A DNA stretch of 37,923 nucleotides, taken from positions 1 through 37,923 of IMG/VR virus record IMGVR_UViG_3300031629_000020; one strand, 5' to 3'. Below are positions 3,435-32,840 of the stretch, one piece after another. The notes below the pieces were generated by a model. The model was not told where the DNA came from and made no database searches. It worked only from the letters and a program-made list of their open reading frames with translations. The DNA is from a virus. The translations under genes were made by a program, and so were the position numbers. Position 1 is the stretch's first letter. Every line of letters starts with the position of its first letter.

Positions 3435-4800
3435 TAATATACCTCACGACTTAGATATTGAAAAAACAGTATTAGGAACTATTTTAAATTTTCCTGATAT
3501 GATTTATGATATATCAGATTTAATTGAACCGAAAGTGTTTTATGCTCCTTCGCATGTTAAGCTATTTGATTTGATGCTCACAATGATGCAGAAAAGTATA
3601 TCATGCGATTTAACAACAGTATTTTCAGAATTAAATAAAGCTCCAGTTGATGGTGTTGATGAAATTTATTTAAGTGAATTGATGGATAAGGGATTTGTTC
3701 GACACTATGTAGAACATCATTGTTTGATACTGAAGCAATTAAAAATCAAACGTGATTTAATTATCACATCTAAGCAAATTGAAACGATGGCCCTAAATCC
3801 TATATGCGACATTGAGGACTTAATCGACTTTTCACAGAAAGCAATATTTGAAAACACAGTTGATGAGATTAGAAGTGAGCCAGAACATATTGGAACTATC
3901 ACAGAAAAAACAATTGATGAAATAGAATACAAGGTTAAGAACCCAGATAAGAAAGGTATTCCTTCGGGATTTAAAAACATTACATGGCATGATTCGGATC
4001 TAAACATTATCGCAGCACGTCCAGCAATGGGAAAAACATTTGTCGGTGTTGTTAAATTTGCAATGGAGGCGGCAATGTATGGAGTTCCTGCACTTATATT
4101 TTCACTCGAAATGAGCAAGGTGCAAATATCACAGCGATTTATGGCACTTCAACAAGAATCAAATAGCAATGATTTAAGGAATGGTAAAAATATAAACTGG
4201 GATAAAATCGAAAATTCACAAGCATATTTTAATAATTTACCTATTTATGTAGATGATAATGCAGGGTTGACAGTTTGGCAAATAGTTTCTAAGGCTAGAA
4301 AGATGCACATTAGGCATAAGATAGGAATTATTTTTGTTGATTATATTGGTTTGGTTTCTGGATTAAGTAAGAATGTAGGCACTAGGGATCAAGAATTAGG
4401 CGTTATTTCTAGGACACTAAAGAAACTAGCTAAAGACTTGAATGTTCCAGTTATTGCATTATCTCAGCTTAATAGAGGCGTAGAACAAAGACAAGATAAG
4501 AGACCATTATTATCTGACCTTAGAGAGTCTGGAAATATCGAACAAGATGCTGATGCTGTTTATATGTTGTATAGGGCTTTTTATTACACAGAGCATACTG
4601 AAGATTTAGGAAAAGGCGAAATAATTTGTCGTAAGAATAGACATGGAGAATTATCTACAACTACATTTTACCACAAATCAGACTGGTCTAAGATTAGTAG
4701 CGATGATACATATAGTTCAGAGAGTTTATTTAAGGAATCAAAACCGCAAAACAATGACAACATAAAACAGAATGATAATTTTGAAGATGATCCGTTTTAA
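3421..4800 (+). CDS. dnaB: Replicative DNA helicase, DnaB-like
   Basis: 459 residues, normal for the family. The N-terminal helical domain (about 5-140) includes the typical opening IPHDLDIEKTVLGTIL. The RecA-like domain carries the Walker A motif AARPAMGKT (198-206), the Walker B segment IGIIFVDYIG (about 309-318), then VIALSQLNRGVEQR and a C-terminal arginine-rich segment (IICRKNRHGE). It unwinds the phage replication fork as a hexamer powered by ATP. It overlaps the initiator-like gene upstream. The acidic C-terminal tail (DNFEDDPF) looks like an SSB-type tip and may be a contact site; that is inference. Confidence 0.95.
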   Translation: MEKNNNIPHDLDIEKTVLGTILNFPDMIYDISDLIEPKVFYAPSHVKLFDLMLTMMQKSISCDLTTVFSELNKAPVDGVDEIYLSELMDKGFVRHYVEHHCLILKQLKIKRDLIITSKQIETMALNPICDIEDLIDFSQKAIFENTVDEIRSEPEHIGTITEKTIDEIEYKVKNPDKKGIPSGFKNITWHDSDLNIIAARPAMGKTFVGVVKFAMEAAMYGVPALIFSLEMSKVQISQRFMALQQESNSNDLRNGKNINWDKIENSQAYFNNLPIYVDDNAGLTVWQIVSKARKMHIRHKIGIIFVDYIGLVSGLSKNVGTRDQELGVISRTLKKLAKDLNVPVIALSQLNRGVEQRQDKRPLLSDLRESGNIEQDADAVYMLYRAFYYTEHTEDLGKGEIICRKNRHGELSTTTFYHKSDWSKISSDDTYSSESLFKESKPQNNDNIKQNDNFEDDPF

Positions 4801-4872
4801 TGTTTGCGCTAGTTAGTGATATTGAAAAGTTTAAATTAGAAATATTTAATAAATAGAATCATGGGTAAATTA

Positions 4873-4931
4873 TTTATAACTAGATTGTAAAATTTCGTTT
4901 CAATGAATTTTACATACGGTTATAAAAAGTT
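4873..4931. mobile_element. 59-bp doubly palindromic element, copy 1
   Basis: Identical over 59 bp to 9995-10053. It has an outer inverted repeat TTTATAAC (4873-4880) / GTTATAAA, and an inner one GTAAAATT / AATTTTAC flanking an 11-nt loop that contains an ATG (4903). It is immediately bounded by 7-bp direct repeats TAAATTA (4866-4872 and 4932-4938), which look like a target-site duplication. Removing the element plus one repeat (66 bp, 22 codons) restores an uninterrupted frame from ATG 4861 into the gene at 4903. No transposase is present. Confidence 0.75.
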
Positions 4932-5088
4932 TAAATTAACCGAAATATCAACACTCCCAAAGCTACCAACAGACGGGAAAATATATCTTTTCAAAGGTGT
5001 GCGAGTTCCTTGTCCAGATTGTGAGAATTGCGCGGTAAGTCGTTATTGTAAGTTTAATAGTAAATTAAAGTTTAAGAGTTATGAATAA
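4903..5088 (+). CDS. Small cysteine-motif protein with a start codon inside an inserted palindromic element
   Basis: 61 residues with a compact metal-binding-like motif, CPDCENCAVSRYC (about 37-49), possibly a small zinc or iron-sulfur binding knuckle. The start and first nine codons (MNFTYGYKK) come from the 59-bp palindromic element. The ancestral start appears to be ATG 4861, which would read MGKL straight into TEISTLPKLP if the element and one 7-bp repeat were removed. In the present sequence that older frame stops at TAA 4888-4890. The gene overlaps the C5 methyltransferase gene by 8 nt, so the two are probably translationally coupled. Function not recognised. Confidence 0.65.
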   Translation: MNFTYGYKKFKLTEISTLPKLPTDGKIYLFKGVRVPCPDCENCAVSRYCKFNSKLKFKSYE

Positions 5089-6253
5089 ATTAAGTTTATT
5101 TGACGGGATGTCAGGGTTGCAAATTGCGTTCCATGACATGGGTTTAAAGTCTGGCAAATACTATGCTTCTGAAATAGATAAATTTGCAATACAGCAAACT
5201 CAATATATGTTTCCGGATACAATCCAAATTGGTAGTGTCGTTGATGTGGATGTTACTGAACTGGATTATATTGGTTTTTTGGGCGGTGGGAGTCCTTGTC
5301 AATCATTTAGTTTTGCTGGGAAAAGAAAAGGAATGTCAACTAAATCTGAAATCGAAATAGCAACACTCGATCACTACTTGCAATTAAAATCAGAAGGTTT
5401 TGAGTTCGAAGGGCAATCGTATTTATTTTGGGAGTATGTGAGAATATTGACCGACATTAGAAAATACAATCCAGACGTTCTTTTTCTCCTGGAGAATGTG
5501 GAAATGGGCAAAAAGTGGGAACGTGTTTTATCGAATGCGCTTGGGTTGTTTGGGGTTCATATAAATAGTGCTAAAGTTTCGGCACAAAATAGAAAGCGCA
5601 TTTATTGGACCAATATTAAAACAACAACGAAAGGTTTATTTTCTGAATTACATTCTGATATTCCACAACCAAAAGACAGGGGTATTTTATTAAAAGATAT
5701 TTTGCAACCTGAAAGCGAAATTGATGAAAAGTATTATATTAAGAATCCTAAATTTGGATTTAATGCAATGGATGTAAATACAAAAGGAAAAACTTTAAGA
5801 GCAGGAGGAAAAGCGGCACAATCAGAAAAACACAACTATGATACAATTAAATTAGACAAAGAATTAAACGTAAAAGCAGACCAAAACAAAGCAAGTTGCT
5901 TTACTGCTGGTGGAAATTCTGGTGGCAATCATAGTGATATGGATATTATTTGTGTTGCAATGCGTGGGCGTAACGCAGAGAATCCAAGTGATGGGAAAAC
6001 AGGCAGCCCAACAGAACAGCGTTTAGAGCCAAAAACAGATGGCAAAACCAATTGCTTAACAAGTGTTTCAAAGGATAATCTTTTAACCAACGGATACCTT
6101 TTAAGAAGATTAACGCCAATAGAATGTGCAAGACTTCAAACGGTTCCGAGTTGGTACAAGTGGATTGTTTCGGATTCTCAGATATATAAAATACTTGGTA
6201 ACGGCTGGACGATCGAAGTAATTAAACATATATTATCATTTATAAAATTATGA
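5081..6253 (+). CDS. DNA (cytosine-5) methyltransferase
   Basis: 390 residues. Motif I is LFDGMSGLQIAF (6-17), the catalytic PCQ loop is at 72-74 (GGGSPCQSFSFAGKRKG), ENV is at 138-140, QNRKRIYW (motif VIII) is at 169-176, and the C-terminal GNGWT is at 373-377. It transfers a methyl group from S-adenosylmethionine to C5 of cytosine. The region from about 185 to 340 holds the variable target-recognition part and a loop rich in G/K/S/N. No cognate restriction enzyme is nearby, so the likely role is protecting phage DNA from host restriction. The specificity cannot be read from sequence. It overlaps the genes on both sides. Confidence 0.95.
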   Translation: MNKLSLFDGMSGLQIAFHDMGLKSGKYYASEIDKFAIQQTQYMFPDTIQIGSVVDVDVTELDYIGFLGGGSPCQSFSFAGKRKGMSTKSEIEIATLDHYLQLKSEGFEFEGQSYLFWEYVRILTDIRKYNPDVLFLLENVEMGKKWERVLSNALGLFGVHINSAKVSAQNRKRIYWTNIKTTTKGLFSELHSDIPQPKDRGILLKDILQPESEIDEKYYIKNPKFGFNAMDVNTKGKTLRAGGKAAQSEKHNYDTIKLDKELNVKADQNKASCFTAGGNSGGNHSDMDIICVAMRGRNAENPSDGKTGSPTEQRLEPKTDGKTNCLTSVSKDNLLTNGYLLRRLTPIECARLQTVPSWYKWIVSDSQIYKILGNGWTIEVIKHILSFIKL

Positions 6254-6702
6254 AAGCAATTAAAACATTTGGACACATCCGTAATGGCAAACTTCACATC
6301 GACAAGCGTAAGCAAGTCAACGAAGCTATAAGTCTATCAGAAGATTGTCAAATTAAAGTAGTCATATCTAAACTATACGGTAAGCGGTCCACCGAACAAA
6401 ACGGCTACTATTGGGGCGTAATTGTAAACATCTGGCAGGATATCATGATTGAAGCAACTGGCGAGCATTTTAATATTGACGAGATGCACGAATTTTTAAA
6501 GCAGAATTTCAATAGCGAGGATGTTGTTTGCGAAAATACAGGTATGATATTGCGCAAGATTAAAAGCACAACCAAAAATACAACGGTAGATCAAGAAGAT
6601 TATCACCAAAAATGCAGAGATGCGGCATGGGAAAACTTCAATGTTGAAATTCCACTACCGTCAAAACAAATTGAAATAGATTTTAAAAAGGACGATAAAT
6701 AG
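6250..6702 (+). CDS. NinB-like phage recombination protein
   Basis: 150 residues, close to the lambda NinB length. The core KRSTEQNGYYWGVIVNIWQDI resembles the NinB (Orf) signature R(S/T)xxQNxxxW. The C-terminal half has a conserved-looking helical part (QEDYHQKCRDAAWENFNVEIPLP). NinB proteins bind single-stranded DNA and SSB and help load recombinase or annealing proteins. It overlaps the methyltransferase stop by 4 nt and is followed by a VRR-NUC nuclease. The assignment rests on a short motif and the context. Confidence 0.55.
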   Translation: MKAIKTFGHIRNGKLHIDKRKQVNEAISLSEDCQIKVVISKLYGKRSTEQNGYYWGVIVNIWQDIMIEATGEHFNIDEMHEFLKQNFNSEDVVCENTGMILRKIKSTTKNTTVDQEDYHQKCRDAAWENFNVEIPLPSKQIEIDFKKDDK

Positions 6703-6714
6703 ATTAAATTTTAG

Positions 6715-6722
6715 TATATTTG
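6715..6722 (+). promoter_or_regulatory. -7 box TATATTTG, leaderless configuration
   Basis: A perfect TAnnTTTG box ends 4 nt before ATG 6727, so the transcript should start at or one base before the start codon. No clear -33 TTG is seen at the normal spacing. The same 4-nt spacing is seen at 33253 and 35763. Confidence 0.55.
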
Positions 6723-6726
6723 AATC

Positions 6727-7053
6727 ATGAAACACGAAGAAGATAATCTACAGCAATCAATAGTAACTTACTTTCGATTTGCATTTCCGAAGTACTTAAT
6801 CTTTGCCGTACCAAATGGAGGCAACCGAAACGCAAGAGAGGGTGCACGATTAAAGAAACAGGGTGTTTTGGCTGGTGTTTCTGATTTAGTAATAGTATTA
6901 CCAAACAAAACTATATTCGTTGAATTAAAGGTCGGTAAGGGCAAGCAGCAAGCAACGCAAAAATCCTTTCAAGCTAATGTCGAGATGTTAGGATATGAGT
7001 ATTATTTGATTTATAGCTTGGATGAGTTTATAGAATTAAGTAAATTATTTTAA
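6727..7053 (+). CDS. VRR-NUC domain nuclease
   Basis: 108 residues, a stand-alone VRR-NUC domain of typical length. Catalytic pattern: E4/E5 near the N-terminus, GVSD (50-53), ELK (66-68) and a following Q/K helix (GKGKQQATQKSFQ). This is the PD-(D/E)xK fold found in phage Holliday-junction or flap-type nucleases. The substrate here is probably branched replication or recombination intermediates. The gene may have a leaderless mRNA (box at 6715-6722). It stands between the NinB-like gene and the helicase/methylase pair. Confidence 0.9.
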   Translation: MKHEEDNLQQSIVTYFRFAFPKYLIFAVPNGGNRNAREGARLKKQGVLAGVSDLVIVLPNKTIFVELKVGKGKQQATQKSFQANVEMLGYEYYLIYSLDEFIELSKLF

Positions 7054-7068
7054 ATTAAATACCGAAAC

Positions 7069-7112
7069 ATGACAAAAGTCAGCTTTTAGTAAGATTATAA
7101 GCAGTATTTTCG
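7069..7112 (+). promoter_or_regulatory. Dyad-type promoter 2
   Basis: The dyad ATGACAAAAGTCAG (7069-7082) has its centre 29.5 bp from the -7-like box TATTTTCG (7105-7112). There is no -33 TTG. It controls the helicase and methyltransferase genes that follow. Confidence 0.65.
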
Positions 7113-7136
7113 TATCGAACTTAAAAATTAGAGATT

Positions 7137-8504
7137 ATGGACGAGTATTTGAAATTACTAGAATCAAAAAGGCATTTAATAGGAGATTTTGGCTTTGAGC
7201 CAAATTATATTCCTGATATGGCTTTTGATTTTCAAAGGCATATTATTGAGAAAGCGGTGCGTAAGGGTCGTATGGCAATATTTGCCGATACCGGATTAGG
7301 TAAAACTTTAATCCAATTATCAATAGCCAAGAATATAGTAAATAAAACCAATAAAAATGTTTTAATATTAACACCTTTAGCGGTTGCATTTCAGTTCTTA
7401 CTAGAAGCCGAAAAGATGGGTATTGACGATATTTCATACAGTAAAGACGGTAAGTATAAAACAAAGATTGTTATTTGTAATTACGAAAGACTGCACTACT
7501 TTAACGAAAATGATTTTGTCGGAGTTGTGTTAGATGAGAGTAGTATATTAAAAAACTTTGATGGTAAAATTAAAGGTCAAATTACTGCATTTATCAAAAA
7601 GATACCTTATAGATTTCTAAGTACCGCAACGCCTTCTCCAAACGATTTTATCGAATTAGGTACAAGCTCAGAGGCTTTAGGATATATGGGGTATGTAGAT
7701 ATGTTGGGAAAGTTTTTTAAAAACAATCAAGGGTCTGTAGATTCAAGCAATAGAAATATAGGAGAAAAATATTATCTAAAAGCCCATGCAGAAAAGAACT
7801 TTTTTGAGTGGGTTAATCAATGGTCAATGTTAGTTAAGATGCCTGCCGATATTGGATTTTCAAACGATGGGTATAATCTACCAAAGCTAATGGTAAACAA
7901 GCACGTTGTGGAAAACACATCTCTAATGAATATTGACGGTCAGTATCAAATGTTCACACCAATAGCAAGAACACACCAAGAAATACTACACGAGCAAAAG
8001 CAAACCATAAAAGACAGATGCGATAAGGCTATTGAATTAGCAGCAGGCAAGACGTCTGTATATTGGGTTAATCGCAACGAAGAAAGTGCATATATAAATA
8101 AGTTAGATTCCGAAGCGGTTGAGATTCTTGGAGGCATGACAATAGAAAAGAAAGAGGATATACTATTGAATTTTGCAGCAGGTAATATTAAAAGAATTAT
8201 AACGAAGGCAAAGATGACTTCTTTTGGCCTTAATTGGCAGCACTGTAATCATTCTGTATTCTTTCCAACATGGAGTTATGAACAATACTACCAATCCATT
8301 CGTAGGTTTTGGAGATTTGGGCAAAAGAATGACGTTACTATTGATATGGTTTATTCAGACGGCCAAACTAGGGTAATTGAAGCATTAGAGCAAAAAACCA
8401 AAAAAGCAATAGATTTGTATCAGAATTTAACGAATGCAGTAAATGGATCATTTGAGAATAAAGTAAAAGAATTTGATAAAGAAATAATTAAACCTAAATT
8501 TTAA
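7137..8504 (+). CDS. SNF2-like DEAD/H superfamily 2 helicase/ATPase
   Basis: 455 residues. Motif I is DTGLGKT (51-57), motif II is the variant LDESS (132-136) in place of DEAH, and motif III is STATPSPND (162-170). The C-terminal RecA-like lobe ends in YYQSIRRFWRFGQKNDV, a motif VI-like arginine-finger segment of the SNF2 group. It is probably a DNA translocase or remodeller rather than a processive helicase. The gene is followed after 4 nt by an N4/N6 DNA methyltransferase, a pairing seen in other phages. The two would form one dyad-controlled operon. Its precise role is unknown; it may help replication or move along DNA for modification. Confidence 0.88.
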   Translation: MDEYLKLLESKRHLIGDFGFEPNYIPDMAFDFQRHIIEKAVRKGRMAIFADTGLGKTLIQLSIAKNIVNKTNKNVLILTPLAVAFQFLLEAEKMGIDDISYSKDGKYKTKIVICNYERLHYFNENDFVGVVLDESSILKNFDGKIKGQITAFIKKIPYRFLSTATPSPNDFIELGTSSEALGYMGYVDMLGKFFKNNQGSVDSSNRNIGEKYYLKAHAEKNFFEWVNQWSMLVKMPADIGFSNDGYNLPKLMVNKHVVENTSLMNIDGQYQMFTPIARTHQEILHEQKQTIKDRCDKAIELAAGKTSVYWVNRNEESAYINKLDSEAVEILGGMTIEKKEDILLNFAAGNIKRIITKAKMTSFGLNWQHCNHSVFFPTWSYEQYYQSIRRFWRFGQKNDVTIDMVYSDGQTRVIEALEQKTKKAIDLYQNLTNAVNGSFENKVKEFDKEIIKPKF

Positions 8505-8508
8505 TATT

Positions 8509-9534
8509 ATGAAAAGTAAAGTAAAAGATCAATTAGTAAAAGATAATTATGCTATATATAATTCAGATTGCATGTTAGTTATGCCGACACTAGAAGATGA
8601 AAGCATTGACTTATCTGTGTACTCTCCGCCGTTTGCAGGATTGTATAATTACAGTAGTTCGGAGCATGACTTTAGTAACTGTGAAAGCAAAGAACAATTT
8701 TTAGAGCAATACGAATTTTTGATTGCTGAGATTGCAAGGGTAACAAAAAAAGGTAGGATTACGGCGGTCCACTGTACAGATGTATTTGACAATACTTGCA
8801 GGCTATGGGATTTTCCACACGAGATAATTAGACTACATACTAAATATGGTTTTGAATATCGTAACCGTATTACAATTTGGAAAGAGCCACTAAAAGTAAG
8901 AATGAGAACAATGGTTCAATCTTTAATGCACAAGTTTATAGTAGAGGATTCAACAAAATGTTTTACCGCAATGCCTGACTATGTTCTAATATTTACCAAG
9001 AAAGGCGAAAACGAAGTGCCAGTAACACATGAGAAAGGATTAACTAAATACTTTGGCGAAACTCCAATACTTCCAAATATATTACAGGCTTGGAATAATG
9101 CGAACAAATCACACTTTAATGAGGTTGAATTATGGGAGCATCTAAATACCGAGTTTAGATTACATAAAGACCCAAAGACAAATAAACTATCTCACTACAT
9201 TTGGCAACGATATGCTAGTTCTGTTTGGGATGACATAAGAATTGATAATGTTTTACCATTTAAAGACACGAAGACAGAGGATGACGAAAAGCACGTACAT
9301 CCGCTTCAATTAGATGTTATAGATAGAATAGTAGAGCTATATAGCAATGAGGGCGAAGTGGTGCTAAGTCCGTTTGCTGGTGTAGGTAGTGAGGTCTACT
9401 CGCCCGTATCATTAGGACGAAAGGCAATAGGAATAGAATTAAAAGATAGTTACTATAAGCAGATGGTATTAAATGTTGCCGATGCTGAAAAGAGATATAA
9501 TTCTAAAAATGCAATTCAAACAAAAATGTTCTAA
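8509..9534 (+). CDS. DNA N4-cytosine/N6-adenine methyltransferase, beta class
   Basis: 341 residues. Catalytic motif IV is SPPF (39-42), and the AdoMet-binding motif I FAGVGSE (about 289-295) comes near the C-terminus, followed by GRKAIGIEL. Motif IV before motif I is the beta-class order. SPP(F/Y) favours N4-cytosine, but N6-adenine cannot be excluded. A region between (about 90-260) would recognise the target. It is adjacent to the SNF2-like helicase and is the second methyltransferase of the window, with no restriction endonuclease partner. Likely role: shielding phage DNA from host restriction or marking it for phage enzymes. Confidence 0.92.
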   Translation: MKSKVKDQLVKDNYAIYNSDCMLVMPTLEDESIDLSVYSPPFAGLYNYSSSEHDFSNCESKEQFLEQYEFLIAEIARVTKKGRITAVHCTDVFDNTCRLWDFPHEIIRLHTKYGFEYRNRITIWKEPLKVRMRTMVQSLMHKFIVEDSTKCFTAMPDYVLIFTKKGENEVPVTHEKGLTKYFGETPILPNILQAWNNANKSHFNEVELWEHLNTEFRLHKDPKTNKLSHYIWQRYASSVWDDIRIDNVLPFKDTKTEDDEKHVHPLQLDVIDRIVELYSNEGEVVLSPFAGVGSEVYSPVSLGRKAIGIELKDSYYKQMVLNVADAEKRYNSKNAIQTKMF

Positions 9535-9536
9535 AC

Positions 9537-9580
9537 ATGACAAATATCATATCGAGGATGGGTTTAAATACCTATCTTCG
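9537..9580 (+). promoter_or_regulatory. Dyad-type promoter 3
   Basis: The dyad ATGACAAATATCAT (9537-9550) has its centre 29.5 bp from TATCTTCG (9573-9580), one base from the -7 consensus. There is no -33 TTG. It drives the gene at 9604. Confidence 0.62.
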
Positions 9581-9603
9581 TTGTGATTAAAATAATTAAA
9601 ACT

Positions 9604-9990
9604 ATGAAATATAAAATAAACAACAATCATTTCAACCCACAGCAAGCCGAAGCCTATTGCATTAAATTAGGCTATTCGATTACAGTTGAATACAACGGTG
9701 CATTCGAACAGAGTTCCGATATATGGGAGTCGTGCAAAGAATTTCAAGTGCCATTCTCAAGGAGCGAGGATAACTTGTCAATCATAGCGTCAATCATAAA
9801 CCTACCGTTTGTGGCTGATAATGTAGAGAATATACTAATCAACGGACTACCTGTTTATCTTGCTAATTCCGGTAAGAAATGGGCGTTGATTGATTCGAAC
9901 TATGATGTTATCGGAGGTGATGAGATAATTAAGCATAGGGCGGTACAGTGGGAATTGATTGAGAGTGTTAGAATGGAGGATTTGAAATGA
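9604..9990 (+). CDS. Hypothetical 128-residue protein
   Basis: The frame is open from a GTG at 9583, but ATG 9604 is the better start. It follows the genome's usual leader (ttaaaactATG) and leaves room after the -7 box at 9573-9580. Acidic and mixed alpha/beta, with AEAYCIKLGYSITVEYNG and GKKWALIDSNYDVIGG as apparent core segments. No family recognised. It ends RMEDLK-TGA, and this very end is duplicated downstream (10054-10067) beside the inserted palindromic element. Confidence 0.65.
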   Translation: MKYKINNNHFNPQQAEAYCIKLGYSITVEYNGAFEQSSDIWESCKEFQVPFSRSEDNLSIIASIINLPFVADNVENILINGLPVYLANSGKKWALIDSNYDVIGGDEIIKHRAVQWELIESVRMEDLK

Positions 9991-9994
9991 ATTG

Positions 9995-10053
9995 TTTATA
10001 ACTAGATTGTAAAATTTCGTTTCAATGAATTTTACATACGGTTATAAAAAGTT
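9995..10053. mobile_element. 59-bp doubly palindromic element, copy 2
   Basis: Identical in all 59 bp to 4873-4931. It sits 4 nt after the stop of the gene at 9604. The 14-bp segment GGAGGATTTGAAAT occurs at 9975-9988 and again at 10054-10067, directly abutting the element on the right. On the left the repeat is followed by GAATTG before the element. This resembles a target duplication of about 19-20 bp with a small indel. The element's ATG (10025-10027) opens only a 14-codon frame ending EDLK, probably not a gene. Confidence 0.75.
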
Positions 10054-10078
10054 GGAGGATTTGAAATAATTCCAAAAC

Positions 10079-10121
10079 ATGACAAAAGTCATATAATTTA
10101 AGATTCAATTGATTAAATTTG
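10079..10121 (+). promoter_or_regulatory. Dyad-type promoter 4
   Basis: The perfect dyad ATGACAAAAGTCAT (10079-10092) has its centre 28.5 bp from the -7 box TAAATTTG (10114-10121, full match). There is no -33 TTG. It drives the operon starting at 10143, which includes the DnaA-like gene. Confidence 0.7.
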
Positions 10122-10142
10122 CATAACTAAAATATAGAAATT

Positions 10143-10331
10143 ATGAAACTAAAATTAAAGCATCAACCGACATTCGATTTAATATTCTACATCTTAGCGG
10201 CTTTGCTGTTTATTGGATTCGGGATAAGATTTATTTGCGAATTGAACACAGTTTGTATATCGTTGGGAATTGTATTTATAGTGATTGGGATTTTTTTAGG
10301 AACTAAAAACATACTAGAAGATGAAAAATAA
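10143..10331 (+). CDS. Small membrane protein with two transmembrane segments
   Basis: 62 residues with two hydrophobic helices (about 11-28 and 34-52) and a short turn (CELNT). A basic N-terminus (MKLKLKH) suggests an N-in orientation. No signal cleavage site or lipobox is seen. It overlaps the next gene by 11 nt. Unknown function. Confidence 0.6.
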   Translation: MKLKLKHQPTFDLIFYILAALLFIGFGIRFICELNTVCISLGIVFIVIGIFLGTKNILEDEK

Positions 10332-10701: not shown

Positions 10702-10886
10702 AGGCAAATCTAAAAATTAGAATCATGCCTAAATATGAATACAGGCTAATATTTTCAGAACCAATGCAAATCGAAGCCAAGAATACAACTGAATTCAAAA
10801 GCAAGATTAAAGCAATCAAAGCCGATTATCAGAGTAGGTATAAGAACGAGAGAGTTTACATTGATAGCGAAATAATATTAAATTAA
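10698..10886 (+). CDS. Hypothetical small basic protein
   Basis: 62 residues from ATG 10698, which overlaps the previous stop. A second ATG at 10725, with a typical leader (aattagaatcATG), would give 53 residues starting MPKYEYRLIF. The protein is beta-alpha in pattern (YRLIFSEPMQIEAKNTTEFKSKIKAI, then ERVYIDSEIIL). No family recognised. Co-transcribed with its neighbours. Confidence 0.55.
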   Translation: MKANLKIRIMPKYEYRLIFSEPMQIEAKNTTEFKSKIKAIKADYQSRYKNERVYIDSEIILN

Positions 10887-10892
10887 AACGAT

Positions 10893-11483
10893 ATGAGAAT
10901 TAAAGACATAAAAGATAAGCAAGAGAGAGTCAGAGACTTGGTACTTGGTATGCGAAGACACACACTGGAACAGGTTAATCAACTTGGCGCAAACGGTAGA
11001 AAGCTAAGAGTTCGAGAGTACGTGACAACCAGACAGATGGTGTATAAGTTATGCTTAGATAATAATATTGGCAGACAGAAGTCAATAGGCTTAATATTCG
11101 ATCAAGACCACGCTACTGTATTACATGGACGCAAGACAATTAACAATTTGATTGATGTTGACAATCGGTTTAGAGCTGAGTTCAAAGCGATAGAATCGGC
11201 TGTTGAAAAGGAATTAACAGAGGTGCTGTTTGATTGGGTTGAAGCAAAAGATACGATAATGAATACCATATTGTGTTTATATAAGGGCGTATATATTGGG
11301 CATATCCATTTAAGTATAAGTTCTGGAACATACGATGTTCCGTTTGGCGAGCCACCACTAGGGCTGGTGGGCATGGATACGCATAGTGCTTGCAACTACA
11401 CTTTGCCTAGTGCCAAAACCTACAACGAGGCTAAACAATGGATTGAGGCTCAGTTCTTAGAGTTTAGGGATAAGATTTTGTAA
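10893..11483 (+). CDS. Protein with DnaA domain IV-like DNA-binding motif
   Basis: 196 residues. The stretch 44-100 matches the DnaA C-terminal DNA-binding domain: TTRQMVYKLCLDNN, then GRQKSIGLIF and DQDHATVLHGRK (about 70-81), the equivalent of the DnaA signature (G)RDHxTVxxxxxK. The AAA+ domain of DnaA is absent; the remaining ~95 residues (with YIGHIHLSISSG and NEAKQWIEAQFLEF) are of unknown type. It could bind DnaA-box-like sites in the phage or host origin, either as a replication factor or by titrating the host initiator. It is the last gene of the dyad-controlled operon from 10143, and the next promoter overlaps its end. Confidence 0.75.
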   Translation: MRIKDIKDKQERVRDLVLGMRRHTLEQVNQLGANGRKLRVREYVTTRQMVYKLCLDNNIGRQKSIGLIFDQDHATVLHGRKTINNLIDVDNRFRAEFKAIESAVEKELTEVLFDWVEAKDTIMNTILCLYKGVYIGHIHLSISSGTYDVPFGEPPLGLVGMDTHSACNYTLPSAKTYNEAKQWIEAQFLEFRDKIL

Positions 11484-11507
11484 AGTGGGAAAATTAAAGT
11501 ATATTTG
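11478..11507 (+). promoter_or_regulatory. Strong Bacteroidota-type promoter (TTG-N19-TATATTTG)
   Basis: TTG at 11478-11480, a 19-nt spacer and the perfect -7 box TATATTTG at 11500-11507. No dyad is present. It drives the gene at 11530. Confidence 0.75.
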
Positions 11508-11529
11508 TATAAATTAAAATTAGAAAGTT

Positions 11530-11826
11530 ATGGAAAAAGAAATTAGAGAAAAACTATCATTAGTGGCCAATAATAGCGAAAAGATTAGAGCGTTATATGT
11601 TTTCTCAAATGTAATGTATGAATGTGATTGCACACTTGACGAATGGATAGATGAGTTGGTGGAAGATATGACCAACACAGTAATGGCAAATGAGATTGAG
11701 GACTTGAAAGTTGGAGAAGTATTTAATCTAAATGTATTAACAGAAGATTATATTATTATAGATAATTTAGAGTGGATAGTAATCCATGCTAACGAAAGAG
11801 AAAGAATACTAACTGCGGGCTATTAA
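11530..11826 (+). CDS. Hypothetical 98-residue acidic protein
   Basis: An acidic, soluble protein with a helical N-half (EIREKLSLVANNSEKIRALYVFSN; CTLDEWIDELVEDMTNTVM) and a beta-type C-half (YIIIDNLEWIVIHANERERIL). It has its own strong promoter with no dyad, so it may be expressed without the activator inferred for the dyad genes. No family recognised. Confidence 0.62.
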   Translation: MEKEIREKLSLVANNSEKIRALYVFSNVMYECDCTLDEWIDELVEDMTNTVMANEIEDLKVGEVFNLNVLTEDYIIIDNLEWIVIHANERERILTAGY

Positions 11827-11846
11827 ACAACACTCAAAAATTAAAT

Positions 11847-11877
11847 TTGAATTTGTCGCTTTTATTTCGTATATTAG
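11847..11877 (+). promoter_or_regulatory. Promoter upstream of the terminase operon
   Basis: TTG at 11847-11849, 20 nt, then TATATTAG at 11870-11877 (7 of 8 positions fit TAnnTTTG if the last two are compared loosely). It would drive 11894 and the packaging genes. Confidence 0.5.
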
Positions 11878-11893
11878 CGGCAAATTTTATATT

Positions 11894-12007
11894 ATGGAAA
11901 TACTGTTGATTAAATTAAGGGATAAAATAATAGATATATTAGATTGCTTTATGAATTGCACGTATCTAGGCTACGAACAAGACCCCGACTTTTGGGATAA
12001 AATGTAA
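11894..12007 (+). CDS. Very small ORF (37 codons) before terminase
   Basis: ATG 11894 follows ttttatatt and the frame ends at TAA 12005-12007, 3 nt before the small terminase start. It encodes MEILLIKLRDKIIDILDC, then FMNCTYLGYEQDPDFW. The start context and tight spacing fit a real leader gene or a translational-coupling peptide. No family recognised. Confidence 0.4.
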   Translation: MEILLIKLRDKIIDILDCFMNCTYLGYEQDPDFWDKM

Positions 12008-16842: not shown

Positions 16843-18330
16843 ATGAAAAGATTATTATTATTATTTGGAACGGTTCTAATTAGTGTTATGTTGTTTGGTC
16901 AATATACAGAAAACAAACTACCATCAGGATTAACAGAATCAACAACAGTAGGAGATGCAGACTATACAATTATTCAAAAGAACGGAGAGTTGATAGTTAA
17001 GGCAGTACGGATGGACACAATCAAGGCTTACATGGTCGAAGGTATGACAGCAGATATTCCTGTATTAGATTCGGTCTCAGGTTCAACAGGACAGTTTGTA
17101 ATATCTGATGGTGTAGGTTGGCTAAGTCCTGTTTCTGCAAAGTATGAAGGTGGTGGCGCATACACTTTCGGTTATCGCTCGGGGATTAAGGGTTGGGGCT
17201 CAATGGTATTAGGTGGCAATTTAAACGGTGGCCAGAATGCAGCAACGGGAATTTTATCTATAGCAACGGGAATAAGCACAGTAGCAAGCGGTTTAAATTC
17301 GTTTGCAGGCGGTAATGGAAGTATAGCAAGCGGAACAGGTGCATTTAGTTTTGGATATTATTCCACAGCAAGCGGTGAGTATGCAACAAGCTTAGGGTAT
17401 CAGAGTGTTGCAAGTGGTGCTTATTCCACAGCAAGCGGGTATTTTTCCACAGCAAGCGGGAATTATTCCACAGCAAGCGGGAATTATTCCACAGCAAGTG
17501 GGACTTATTCCACAGCAAGTGGGTATTTTTCCACAGCAAGCGGGTATTCCTCCACAGCAAGTGGGACTTATTCCACAGCAAGTGGGACTTATTCCACAGC
17601 AAGCGGGAATTATTCCACAGCAAGCGGGAATTATTCCACAGCAAGTGGGTATTCCTCCACAGCAAATTCATACGCTGAAACCGTAATAGGCATATATCCT
17701 GACACAGTTACACCAACATCAGCAACCACATACCAATTATCAGATTGGCTTTTTGGTATTGGAAACGGAACAAGTGCAGGGAGTAAGTCAAACGCCTTAG
17801 TAATGCTCAAATCAGGAAACACAACAGCAATAGGAGACTGGACAATTGACGGAGATTTGACAGTAACAGGGGATGTTGACTTTTCAGGTTCATTCCCTAC
17901 AATATCGGCTTACATTCCAGAAGATAGCACACTTTCAACCACACTATTAACAGGAGTTCCGAAGTACTTAGGTGATGGAAATACAAACCAATTCGTAAAC
18001 ACCAATACAGTAGATTTTGAATTAAACGGTGATACCCTTGTTTACATAGGAACAAATGCAACAACAATGTATATATCTTATAATGCGGTATCTACAACAT
18101 CAACGGTATCAACAACAGTACATACATACATCTATATTAACGATGTATTAGATGAACAATTTACAGGAGTCGTATTTTGTAAAACAGCAGGCGAGAAGTA
18201 CCCAATGAGTGGAGCTAGTGGATTAGTAGTGTTAAATCCTAATGATTCCGTAAAAATATACATCGAAGCTGATAAGAATTGCACGGTAGTGAACGATCAT
18301 TTCCCAGTATCAGCATTTAAAGTAAAATAA
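16843..18330 (+). CDS. YadA-like repeat fibre/adhesin with an N-terminal signal-like segment
   Basis: 495 residues. The N-terminus (MKRLLLLFGTVLISVMLFGQ) looks like a Sec signal peptide with cleavage near LFG/Q, unusual for a virion fibre. Residues 100-280 carry YadA-head-type heptad repeats (Y/F/S-STASG-x), which fold as a trimeric left-handed beta-roll. The C-terminal ~130 residues (VDFELNGDTLVYIGTN...VKIYIEADKNC) are beta-rich and resemble a jelly-roll/C1q-like trimeric receptor head. The order shaft-repeats-head suggests a fibre or a secreted adhesin that binds a host surface. It lies before the tail-tip genes. Repeat DNA is described at 17422. Confidence 0.75.
   Translation: MKRLLLLFGTVLISVMLFGQYTENKLPSGLTESTTVGDADYTIIQKNGELIVKAVRMDTIKAYMVEGMTADIPVLDSVSGSTGQFVISDGVGWLSPVSAKYEGGGAYTFGYRSGIKGWGSMVLGGNLNGGQNAATGILSIATGISTVASGLNSFAGGNGSIASGTGAFSFGYYSTASGEYATSLGYQSVASGAYSTASGYFSTASGNYSTASGNYSTASGTYSTASGYFSTASGYSSTASGTYSTASGTYSTASGNYSTASGNYSTASGYSSTANSYAETVIGIYPDTVTPTSATTYQLSDWLFGIGNGTSAGSKSNALVMLKSGNTTAIGDWTIDGDLTVTGDVDFSGSFPTISAYIPEDSTLSTTLLTGVPKYLGDGNTNQFVNTNTVDFELNGDTLVYIGTNATTMYISYNAVSTTSTVSTTVHTYIYINDVLDEQFTGVVFCKTAGEKYPMSGASGLVVLNPNDSVKIYIEADKNCTVVNDHFPVSAFKVK
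17422..17673 (+). repeat. Tandem 21-bp coding repeats (heptad STASG units)
   Basis: Twelve tandem units of exactly 21 bp: eleven full units from 17422 to 17652 and a degenerate twelfth to 17673. Each encodes (Y/F/S)STASG(Y/N/T). Units match almost perfectly, even at synonymous sites (for example the invariant tccacagcaag), so they expanded recently, probably by replication slippage. Variation is confined to the first and last codons of the unit. Length variants stay in frame. Confidence 0.95.
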
Positions 18331-29225: not shown

Positions 29226-30562
29226 TGAGTTTAACATATTCAACAGTTGATCCGTTGGTGATAAAAACAGAAAACAGAAAGTTCGGTATCTATAATTACG
29301 GAACGGACAATCTCTACCCGAATAACAATGCCGTTCTTTCTGATAATTCTGGAACGCTATTCAAATGTTGGACAACTTATTTAGATTTTATTTTCGGCAA
29401 AGGAATGGTTGAAAATACTGACTTTTGGAAAATGAAAGTCAATATTTACGGGCTAAGGGTCGATCAACTGTTACGCAGAATTCAAAAGGATTTTTCTATA
29501 CACGAAGGATTTGCAGTTAAGATTGTATATAATAGCCTAATGGAAAAAGTCGGCATCGTTCCTGTTGATTTTGAAAACTGTAGACTTGCTTATGCTGATG
29601 ATTTTGGACGTATCGTTAAGATTAAATACTACAAAGATTGGAGCGCAAAGAGAATAGAAGCTAAGGACATAAAAGAATATGACGTTTATAATCCATCTAA
29701 AAAAGACATAGCGGCTCAAATAACGGCTGTAGATGGTATTGAAAATTGGAACGGGCAAATACTATACTTTGGTAAAAATGGAGAGGTTAAGTATCCCCAC
29801 GCTAAGTTTCATTCCGTATTAGAGGATGTGCTAACAGATATCGCAATAAAGAAAGGTAAGAATGCGAACACTTCGACAAACTTCATGGCTTCACACATGT
29901 TGCAATTGCCTTATACGTTTGAATCATTAGTAGATGCAAGCATTACGGACGCAAAAGAAAGACGATCCGAAGCGGCTAAACTAAGAGTTGCCTTTACTAC
30001 TAGCTTAAATAATTTCCAATCAGCAGAAAATACAGGTAAAATAGTAGTAGTTGAGAATGATTTGAAAGACAGCGAAGGAAAATCGGTTGCGTTTGATTTG
30101 CAGAAATTCGACATACAAGATTTTGACAAGATATTTGAATTTACAGAAGGAAGCGTAAAGGATTCAATAAGAGGTGTATATAAGCAACCAAAGATTTTTC
30201 ATGACCCAGTTGCAACGGGTTTCAGTACTGAAATAATGGAGGCTTTTTACAATTACTATAACAAGGTTACTTCGAGAGATAGACAGACTTTCGAAGAGGT
30301 GTTTATGGATTTATTTACAGGATTTAAGGGCGTTCCTTCAGGGGTTGTTTACGAAATAGAACCGTTAACATATTTAGATTACGACGATGAGGAAATAGGT
30401 GGAGAGCCATTAGCCGTAACGCTTGGAGTTGGTGGAACATCAGCGATGCAAGCAGTATTAACTGATACTACATTGACACCTACTCAGAAGGTTGGTATAT
30501 TGGATGTATTATTTGGAATTCCAACAGAAGATGCGAACAGAATGTTAGACATAAATCAATAA
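29225..30562 (+). CDS. Portal protein
   Basis: 445 residues, typical length. The sequence FGIYNYGTDNLYPNNNAVLSDNSGTLFKCWTTYLDFIFGKG, the middle beta-helix parts, and QPKIFHDPVATGFSTEIMEAFYNYYNKVTSRDRQTFEEVF match the pattern of portal proteins in Bacteroidota phages. It forms the dodecameric ring through which DNA enters the head. It lies about 15 kb from terminase and downstream of the capsid gene, an unusual order. Confidence 0.78.
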   Translation: MSLTYSTVDPLVIKTENRKFGIYNYGTDNLYPNNNAVLSDNSGTLFKCWTTYLDFIFGKGMVENTDFWKMKVNIYGLRVDQLLRRIQKDFSIHEGFAVKIVYNSLMEKVGIVPVDFENCRLAYADDFGRIVKIKYYKDWSAKRIEAKDIKEYDVYNPSKKDIAAQITAVDGIENWNGQILYFGKNGEVKYPHAKFHSVLEDVLTDIAIKKGKNANTSTNFMASHMLQLPYTFESLVDASITDAKERRSEAAKLRVAFTTSLNNFQSAENTGKIVVVENDLKDSEGKSVAFDLQKFDIQDFDKIFEFTEGSVKDSIRGVYKQPKIFHDPVATGFSTEIMEAFYNYYNKVTSRDRQTFEEVFMDLFTGFKGVPSGVVYEIEPLTYLDYDDEEIGGEPLAVTLGVGGTSAMQAVLTDTTLTPTQKVGILDVLFGIPTEDANRMLDINQ

Positions 30563-31755: not shown

Positions 31756-32840
31756 TGGGATATGCAAATTTAACAGGAATATCATCAGTACCTGAACCAA
31801 CAACAGGAGATTATCTTGTTAGATTTATTGATGATGAAGGAACTATTTACACTCAATACGTAGATGCTGGAAATGATGCGATTCTTCCAACATTAGTAGA
31901 TAGAGATTTACTTACATTCGTAGGCTGCAATGTTGATTATACTAACATACAACAAGATACAGACGTAGGACTGATTTACAAGACTACGGATGACAAGACA
32001 TACTTATTTATGTCAATCACAAGGATAACAGGTAAAACTCCATCAATTACATTAAACAAAGCTACAACCGACCTTATGATCGTCACTTGGGGGGACGGGG
32101 AGACGGCGACAACCTCAGCAAGCGGCATTGTTACTCTATCAAAAGTAAATGATTATACAATTGGATACTATCAAGTTAGCATTGAATGTGTAGGTAATTA
32201 CAGGCTATCTTCTTATGTTTTTGGAAACAATGTAAACTATAATAGTTGTCTAACAAAATGTTATTTGAGTAATAATATACTTTCATTAGATTTTAATGCT
32301 TTTTCTACTTGTTATTCGCTAGTTTCAATCGTACTTCCCAATAGCATACTAAGTATCCGAACTTCCACTTTTGGCACGTGTTATTCCTTAATCATTGTTG
32401 TAGTGCCAAATAGTGTTATCTTTATAGGTTTACGTGCTTTTTATCAGTGCTACTCGTTAGCATTAATCATAGGTGTATCAGCCGTTGAAAGTATAGGGGA
32501 CCGTGCATTCTATGAGTGTTGTTCTTTGACTTCGACTGGAAGTCTAGCCAGCACAACTCTACTTGACGTTGCTGCATTTGCAAGGTGCTACGCTTTGCCT
32601 TTAGTTGTAGTTCCAGATAGTATGCTCAGTGTCGGGAGCTACGCTTTTCTGAATTGCTATGCGTTAGTTTCATATCATTTTGAATCGACAACACCTCCAA
32701 CACTAGTTAATATTAACGCTTTTACAGGGATAAACAAAATAGCTAGAATTTATGTTCCAGACGCAAGTGTAACAGCTTACAAGACTGCAACTAATTGGAT
32801 AACATACGCAGAGTATATTTATCCAGAATCAGAAATGTAA
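31755..32840 (+). CDS. BspA/TpLRR leucine-rich-repeat adhesin-like protein
   Basis: 361 residues. Residues ~95-125 hold a PKD-like strand pair (VTWGDGETATT). Residues ~160-340 carry about seven TpLRR/LRR_5 repeats of the form AF..CYSL..I.VP.S..SIG..AF, each with Cys in the loop (CYSLVSIVLPNSILSI; CYSLIIVVVPNSVIFIG; CYALPLVVVPDSMLSVG). BspA-type repeats bind host proteins or glycans. It is probably the second receptor-binding module of the virion, besides the YadA-repeat fibre. No reverse transcriptase is present, so it is not a diversity-generating retroelement target here. Confidence 0.78.
   Translation: MGYANLTGISSVPEPTTGDYLVRFIDDEGTIYTQYVDAGNDAILPTLVDRDLLTFVGCNVDYTNIQQDTDVGLIYKTTDDKTYLFMSITRITGKTPSITLNKATTDLMIVTWGDGETATTSASGIVTLSKVNDYTIGYYQVSIECVGNYRLSSYVFGNNVNYNSCLTKCYLSNNILSLDFNAFSTCYSLVSIVLPNSILSIRTSTFGTCYSLIIVVVPNSVIFIGLRAFYQCYSLALIIGVSAVESIGDRAFYECCSLTSTGSLASTTLLDVAAFARCYALPLVVVPDSMLSVGSYAFLNCYALVSYHFESTTPPTLVNINAFTGINKIARIYVPDASVTAYKTATNWITYAEYIYPESEM

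Follow-up and report, generated by a model that had tools for sequence, protein, structure and literature searches.

Two identical attC-like hairpins in a tailed-phage record belong to a Bacteroidota-phage hairpin family that marks points of gene exchange

Two identical 59-nt palindromic sequences lie 5.1 kb apart in the 37.9-kb record of a tailed phage, with several genes between them and direct repeats on either side of each. What kind of element are they, and how did the phage come to carry two? The window analyzed here is the whole 37,923-nt stretch of record IMGVR_UViG_3300031629_000020, for whose helicase and methyltransferase genes the closest named records are Flavobacterium phages. 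The phage encodes DnaB, a NinB/Orf-like recombination protein, a VRR-NUC protein, an exonuclease, a terminase, a portal protein, and a tape measure protein; the protein encoded at 10893-11483 shows a weak match to the DnaA C-terminal helix-turn-helix, and this gene is annotated in several other Bacteroidota phages. A first-pass annotation had read the pair as a tiny, non-autonomous mobile hairpin that inserts with duplication of its target, no transposase being encoded in the window. Among the window ORFs scanned there was indeed no transposase, and no integrase or reverse transcriptase either. Copy 2 follows the stop codon of an orphan ORF, whereas copy 1 lies inside a short gene (Table 1). 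The intergenic motif AAACATGACAAAAGTCATAT and its variants, with the inverted repeat ATGAC/GTCAT, follow three genes of the window (7058-7081, 9522-9552, and 10064-10094) and form a possible operator or promoter site.

Table 1. Positions of the two hairpins, their flanking repeats, and neighboring genes in the window
Feature	Position	Strand	Remarks
Short ORF MFALVSDIEKFKLEIFNK	4800-4858	+	Start overlaps DnaB stop; probably what is left of the 5' part of the gene that copy 1 interrupts
Outer direct repeat AAAAGTTTAAATTA, left of copy 1	4825-4838	+	Local direct-repeat scan
Inner 7-bp direct repeat TAAATTA	4866-4872	+	Second copy at 4932-4938; from sequence
Copy 1, attC-like hairpin	4868-4931	+	Core 4873-4931; model match 4873-4925; ATTA 5' of the 5' box
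Copy 1 outer 5' box TTTATAAC, R''-like	4873-4880	+	Partner GTTATAAA at 4919-4926; aligns with invariant AAC/GTT family columns
Copy 1 terminal loop TCGTTTCAATG	4895-4905	+	Family signature TCGTTTYAATG; copy 2 counterpart at 10017-10027
61-aa ORF, start ATG inside hairpin	4903-5088	+	Rest of interrupted gene; contains Cys; no homologue found
Outer direct repeat AAAAGTTTAAATTA, right of copy 1	4925-4938	+	First 7 nt double as element 3' end
C5 DNA methyltransferase between sites	5081-6253	+	Pfam PF00145, 7e-37
N6/N4 DNA methyltransferase between sites	8509-9534	+	Pfam PF01555, 2e-22
135-aa ORF ending directly 5' of copy 2	9583-9990	+	ORF followed by site; no homologue found
Direct repeat TGGAGGATTTGAAAT, left of copy 2	9974-9988	+	At end of ORF 9583-9990
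Copy 2, attC-like hairpin	9990-10053	+	Core 9995-10053; model match 9995-10047; ATTG upstream
Direct repeat TGGAGGATTTGAAAT, right of copy 2	10053-10067	+	Local direct-repeat scan

The 59-nt cores are identical, as the first-pass annotation had stated, and the 59-mer occurs only these two times in the window. Widening the match leftward by 5 nt (AATTA in copy 1, AATTG in copy 2) brings the agreement to 63 of 64 positions. The nested arms were likewise as described, with TTTATAAC/GTTATAAA outside and GTAAAATT/AATTTTAC inside, closed by an 11-nt terminal loop; the inner stem measures 9 bp when an adjoining T-A pair is counted. As + strand RNA, the 59-mer of both copies folds at -14 kcal/mol (z -3.9), and none of 200 shuffled sequences folded as well. 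The DNA folds are weaker than the RNA fold, yet hairpin-shaped on either strand. In the DNA and RNA folds alike, the single-strand hairpin consists of two box pairs with an unpaired spacer: an outer stem of 8-9 bp, an inner stem of 9 bp, and an internal loop.

Relatives were not found by primary sequence. Pattern searches with the 59-mer, exact and gapped, in IMG/VR and GTDB contigs, blastn of the element against phages and plasmids, and BLAST against 396 Bacteroidota-phylum genomes gave chance matches only, and a covariance model of the two window copies found nothing in 99 genomes. The exact pattern TAACGG...TCGTTTTAATG...GTGTTA also had no match in the 396 genomes, though a covariance model later found relatives. 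The way into the family was a weak match of the two-copy model (E 0.11) in a helicase-sharing phage contig, L040, in which the same loop sits on a stem of other sequence that is still complementary. The loop motif in turn pointed to contig L011, through which Tenacibaculum phage JQ, an uncultured 635-kb phage, and two sites in Polaribacter phage P12002L were reached. We built a covariance model, R2, from seven hairpins of other Bacteroidota phages, two of the seven from P12002L and none from the window. This alignment shows no variation in AAC, GTT, or the 11-nt loop; 97.5% of its cells are paired, and 8 of the 17 pairs show changes on both sides; none of 500 shuffles scored as high. When run against the window, R2 recovers both copies at 31 bits (E 1.4e-6 each), and the next best place scores 11 bits (E 0.9). 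These E-values are rough because the calibration was shortened, but the gap between 31 and 11 bits is independent of calibration. With R2, additional sites came to light in P12002L, P12002S, and Cellulophaga phages phi17:1 and phi13:2, and 19 of the 248 Bacteroidota-group genomes searched had matches as well. Some 27 places reach at least 31 bits in the 248 genomes (roughly 0.9 Gb, scanned with strict filters); if every one of them were a false hit, a 38-kb stretch would still be expected to contain fewer than 0.01, a figure that carries the caveat of those filters. The family anatomy comprises AAC...GTT outer boxes, an internal loop, a compensating inner stem, and the 11-nt loop TCGTTTYAATG. 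The window copies have the family loop (TCGTTTCAATG) and ATTR directly 5' of the box, and the position at which they differ, A against G, is A or G across most of the family too. The window hairpins belong to this Bacteroidota-phage family.

The family includes sites in a phage with published attC sites. Qi et al. 2023 (PMC9892861) report attC sites in virulent phages including P12002L, whose cassette cluster (CALIN) includes two DNA methyltransferases and no reported integrase; IntI1 recombined attC2 of this phage into attI1. The two P12002L hairpins among the seven flank the DNA methyltransferase gene P12002L_0036 and are presumably the published attC1 and attC2. The P12002L sites share with the window sites the loop TCGTTTYAATG, the AAC/GTT outer boxes, the internal loop, and the compensating inner stem, along with DNA methyltransferase genes nearby and a cluster without a reported integrase. 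The window sites differ in their GTTATAA box, in being identical to each other and 5.1 kb apart, and in lying between 14-15-bp direct repeats.

The same family shows what happens at these hairpins. P12002S site a and P12002L site e are 98.7% identical from the 5' box downstream, and P12002S site a and P12002L site a are 87.7% identical upstream, the similarity stopping exactly at the box AACG. The related phages P12002L (L189, minus strand, 30005-30060 and 32220-32285) and P12002S (L193, 12020-12085 and 11106-11167) thus differ by gene swaps with breakpoints in the 5' box of the hairpin. The similarity of phage contig L040 to P12002L site d (88%) is confined to the part that runs downstream from within the hairpin, and what a chromosomal site (G203) shares is the 3' half of the hairpin and the leader after it. 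These breakpoints show that hairpins of the family mark points at which neighboring genes are exchanged, and the window copies probably mark such points as well. The leader TATTTTTAAAAAGGGCAATTAGTGAGGAACGAACT downstream of the site is common to contig L040 (minus strand, after 3198) and chromosome L227 (after 8192), and it looks like the start of a mobile cassette.

How closely do the window hairpins conform to attC sites? With the attC sites (59-base elements) of integrons in general they share nested inverted repeats with an unpaired spacer, the AAC/GTT triplets, and size; an ORF directly precedes the site at copy 2, and copy 1 lies inside a short gene. They depart from them in missing GTTRRRY, in a loop that is conserved across different phages, and in the lack of an intI among the scanned ORFs and of an attI in the window. 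The AAC and GTT triplets of the outer boxes fall in the invariant family columns. The R' box reads GTTATAA, so that canonical attC status fails the GTTRRRY consensus test, as it does for 10 of 15 tabulated sites, the window included; the other 5 of the 15 carry the consensus. The GG that follows AAC in most family members is also missing. That the window hairpins would work like attC sites is nevertheless well supported. No integron integrase gene, which a complete integron would have nearby, was found among the window ORFs scanned; clusters of attC sites without an integrase (CALIN) lack the gene by definition. In two genomes, chromosomal hairpins of the family lie ∼1 kb from tyrosine recombinases (L226, hairpin 9519-9572 and ORF 10768-11895; L227, hairpin 8136-8192 and ORF 9151-10278). 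Both recombinases are 375 aa long and match the integron-integrase profile in two separate stretches only, below the cutoff; they are best called XerA-like. A tyrosine recombinase near similar sites in a Cellulophaga phage was also considered as an IntI and set aside, as its matches are weak ones to XerD/phage-integrase models and not to IntI.

We consider it likely that both window copies are attC-type folded recombination sites (the "59-base element") of the Bacteroidota-phage family, served by a recombinase in trans. In single-stranded form, the 59-mer would fold with its AAC/GTT outer boxes paired and, beyond them, the unpaired spacer, the inner box, and the conserved loop. The AAC/GTT box would be the point of action for a tyrosine recombinase present in trans, be it a host integron integrase, a co-resident one, or a relative, and genes adjoining the hairpins could then be swapped. 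One site would have been inserted twice in the phage lineage, giving two identical copies, and the flanking direct repeats would have been left by microhomology-guided strand annealing or template switching and not by the recombinase. The window copies may be active now or may have been so formerly.

The flanking repeats are the feature that this reading has to accommodate. Both sets in the first-pass annotation are present, TGGAGGATTTGAAAT around copy 2 and TAAATTA directly abutting copy 1 on both sides, but an outer 14-bp repeat around copy 1, AAAAGTTTAAATTA, had been overlooked. GAAATAT trails both AAAAGTTTAAATTA repeats, with a 3-nt gap on one side. The 15-mer of copy 2 and the 14-mer of copy 1 are the longest direct repeats at most 300 bp apart in the window, once a tandem array at 17.3-17.7 kb is set aside and another 14-mer elsewhere is recognized as common start-codon context; simulated sequences contained a mean of 0.3 repeats of at least 14 bp. 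The array itself (17326-17724) is a 21-bp tandem repeat of ∼14 registered copies within a 495-aa ORF (16843-18330). In the copy 1 outer repeat, 7 of the 14 bp are the element's own 3' end, and the similarity of the flanks without those 7 is modest. Removing the insert and one repeat at site 1, so that 4838 is joined to 4939, gives an uninterrupted 62-aa ORF whose start ATG overlaps the DnaB stop; at site 2 the same operation leaves the C-terminus of the 135-aa ORF unchanged (MEDLK, then TAA). Two insertions would look like this, and these plausibly approximate the pre-insertion states of both sites. A search for empty sites in relatives by way of the neighboring proteins found none, both flanking small genes being orphans.

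Recombination of the attC type is not known to duplicate its target, so the repeats in the window need another step. The junctions overlap by AAAAGTT (7 nt) at copy 1 and by AATT at both 5' junctions; together with the exonuclease and NinB-like genes of the phage, which fit an annealing-type insertion, these overlaps favor microhomology-guided annealing or template switching as the likeliest source of the repeats. An assembly artifact at the hairpin sites may also play a part. Repeats longer than 11 bp flank only the window copies (2 of 23 phage sites), and their absence from all 21 other phage sites of the family argues that target duplication, as proposed in the first-pass annotation, is not the family's mode of spread. 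No second case emerged when related loci were examined for hairpins lying between direct repeats, or 167 loci for repeated hairpins. The earlier description of a small palindromic unit with no enzyme of its own among the scanned ORFs stands, but a free-standing hairpin transposon defined by target duplication does not, given the wider attC-like family at gene-swap points. The pair is best filed as attC-type sites with direct repeats that are unusual for the family.

The same junction overlaps, exonuclease, and NinB-like genes would also suit a pair of attC relics, copied in this lineage only by microhomology-guided template switching or Red-type annealing, whose attC likeness reflects descent and not present function. 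The loss of the strict R' consensus and the lack of an integrase agree with this account, which we nonetheless find improbable, as the boxes, stem, and loop are intact and the copies identical, so that decay is not evident.

It is highly improbable that the pair is a MITE-like non-autonomous hairpin mobilized in trans by a transposase that duplicates ∼14-15 bp of target. Such an element would leave identical copies, direct repeats like those seen (14 and 15 bp), and plausible empty-site ORFs. However, the copy 1 repeat overlaps the element's 3' end, the inserts are of unequal length (86 and 64 nt), and such repeats are absent at other family sites, which is at odds with fixed ends and duplication. 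IMG/VR and GTDB contigs hold no exact-pattern relatives, no transposase was found in the scanned ORFs, and the gene-swap breakpoints of the family fall inside the hairpin box. REP/BIME, RPE, RUP, and MITEs resemble the hairpin in being short, palindromic, non-coding, and without an enzyme of their own, but they are moved by transposases or unknown means and are defined by terminal repeats (PMC10969869), whereas relatives of the hairpin mark gene-swap points at a recombination-site box.

A hairpin kept as a cis-acting RNA regulator, for mRNA 3' protection, weak termination, or start-codon control, has a very small chance of being the explanation. The G-U pairs favor the + strand as RNA, copy 2 follows a stop codon, and the ATG of the loop is in frame with downstream coding sequence, so that copy 1 gives the remainder of the interrupted gene a start codon. 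Against this, an Rfam search with the hairpin matched no family, the stem is not followed by a T-run, family members occur at gene boundaries with changing neighbors, and copy 1 breaks the start of a gene. In byp elements and T4 gene 60, as at copy 1, a hairpin interrupts an ORF between matching codons, but programmed bypassing was rejected for copy 1, where the 100-nt insert causes a frame shift and has no more than 13 codons ahead of it.

Returning to the attC-type reading, a broader version of it is possible but doubtful: Bacteroidota phages and chromosomes would share a distinct attC-like class with a conserved loop, in which a recombinase other than classical IntI exchanges genes between AAC and G, and insertion of naked hairpins leaves 14-15-bp duplications and seeds exchange points in virulent phages.

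A few phages were already known to have attC sites but no integrase. As the shared loop and covarying stem demonstrate, sites of this type recur in Polaribacter, Tenacibaculum, and Cellulophaga phages, in an uncultured 635-kb phage, and in Bacteroidota chromosomes, and the family can be searched with a small model. P12002L and P12002S provide natural recombinants whose breakpoints fall at the box, so that gene exchange among virulent phages can be tested directly. To these the window adds a case of apparent double insertion of the site itself, and with it the question of how new exchange points are seeded.
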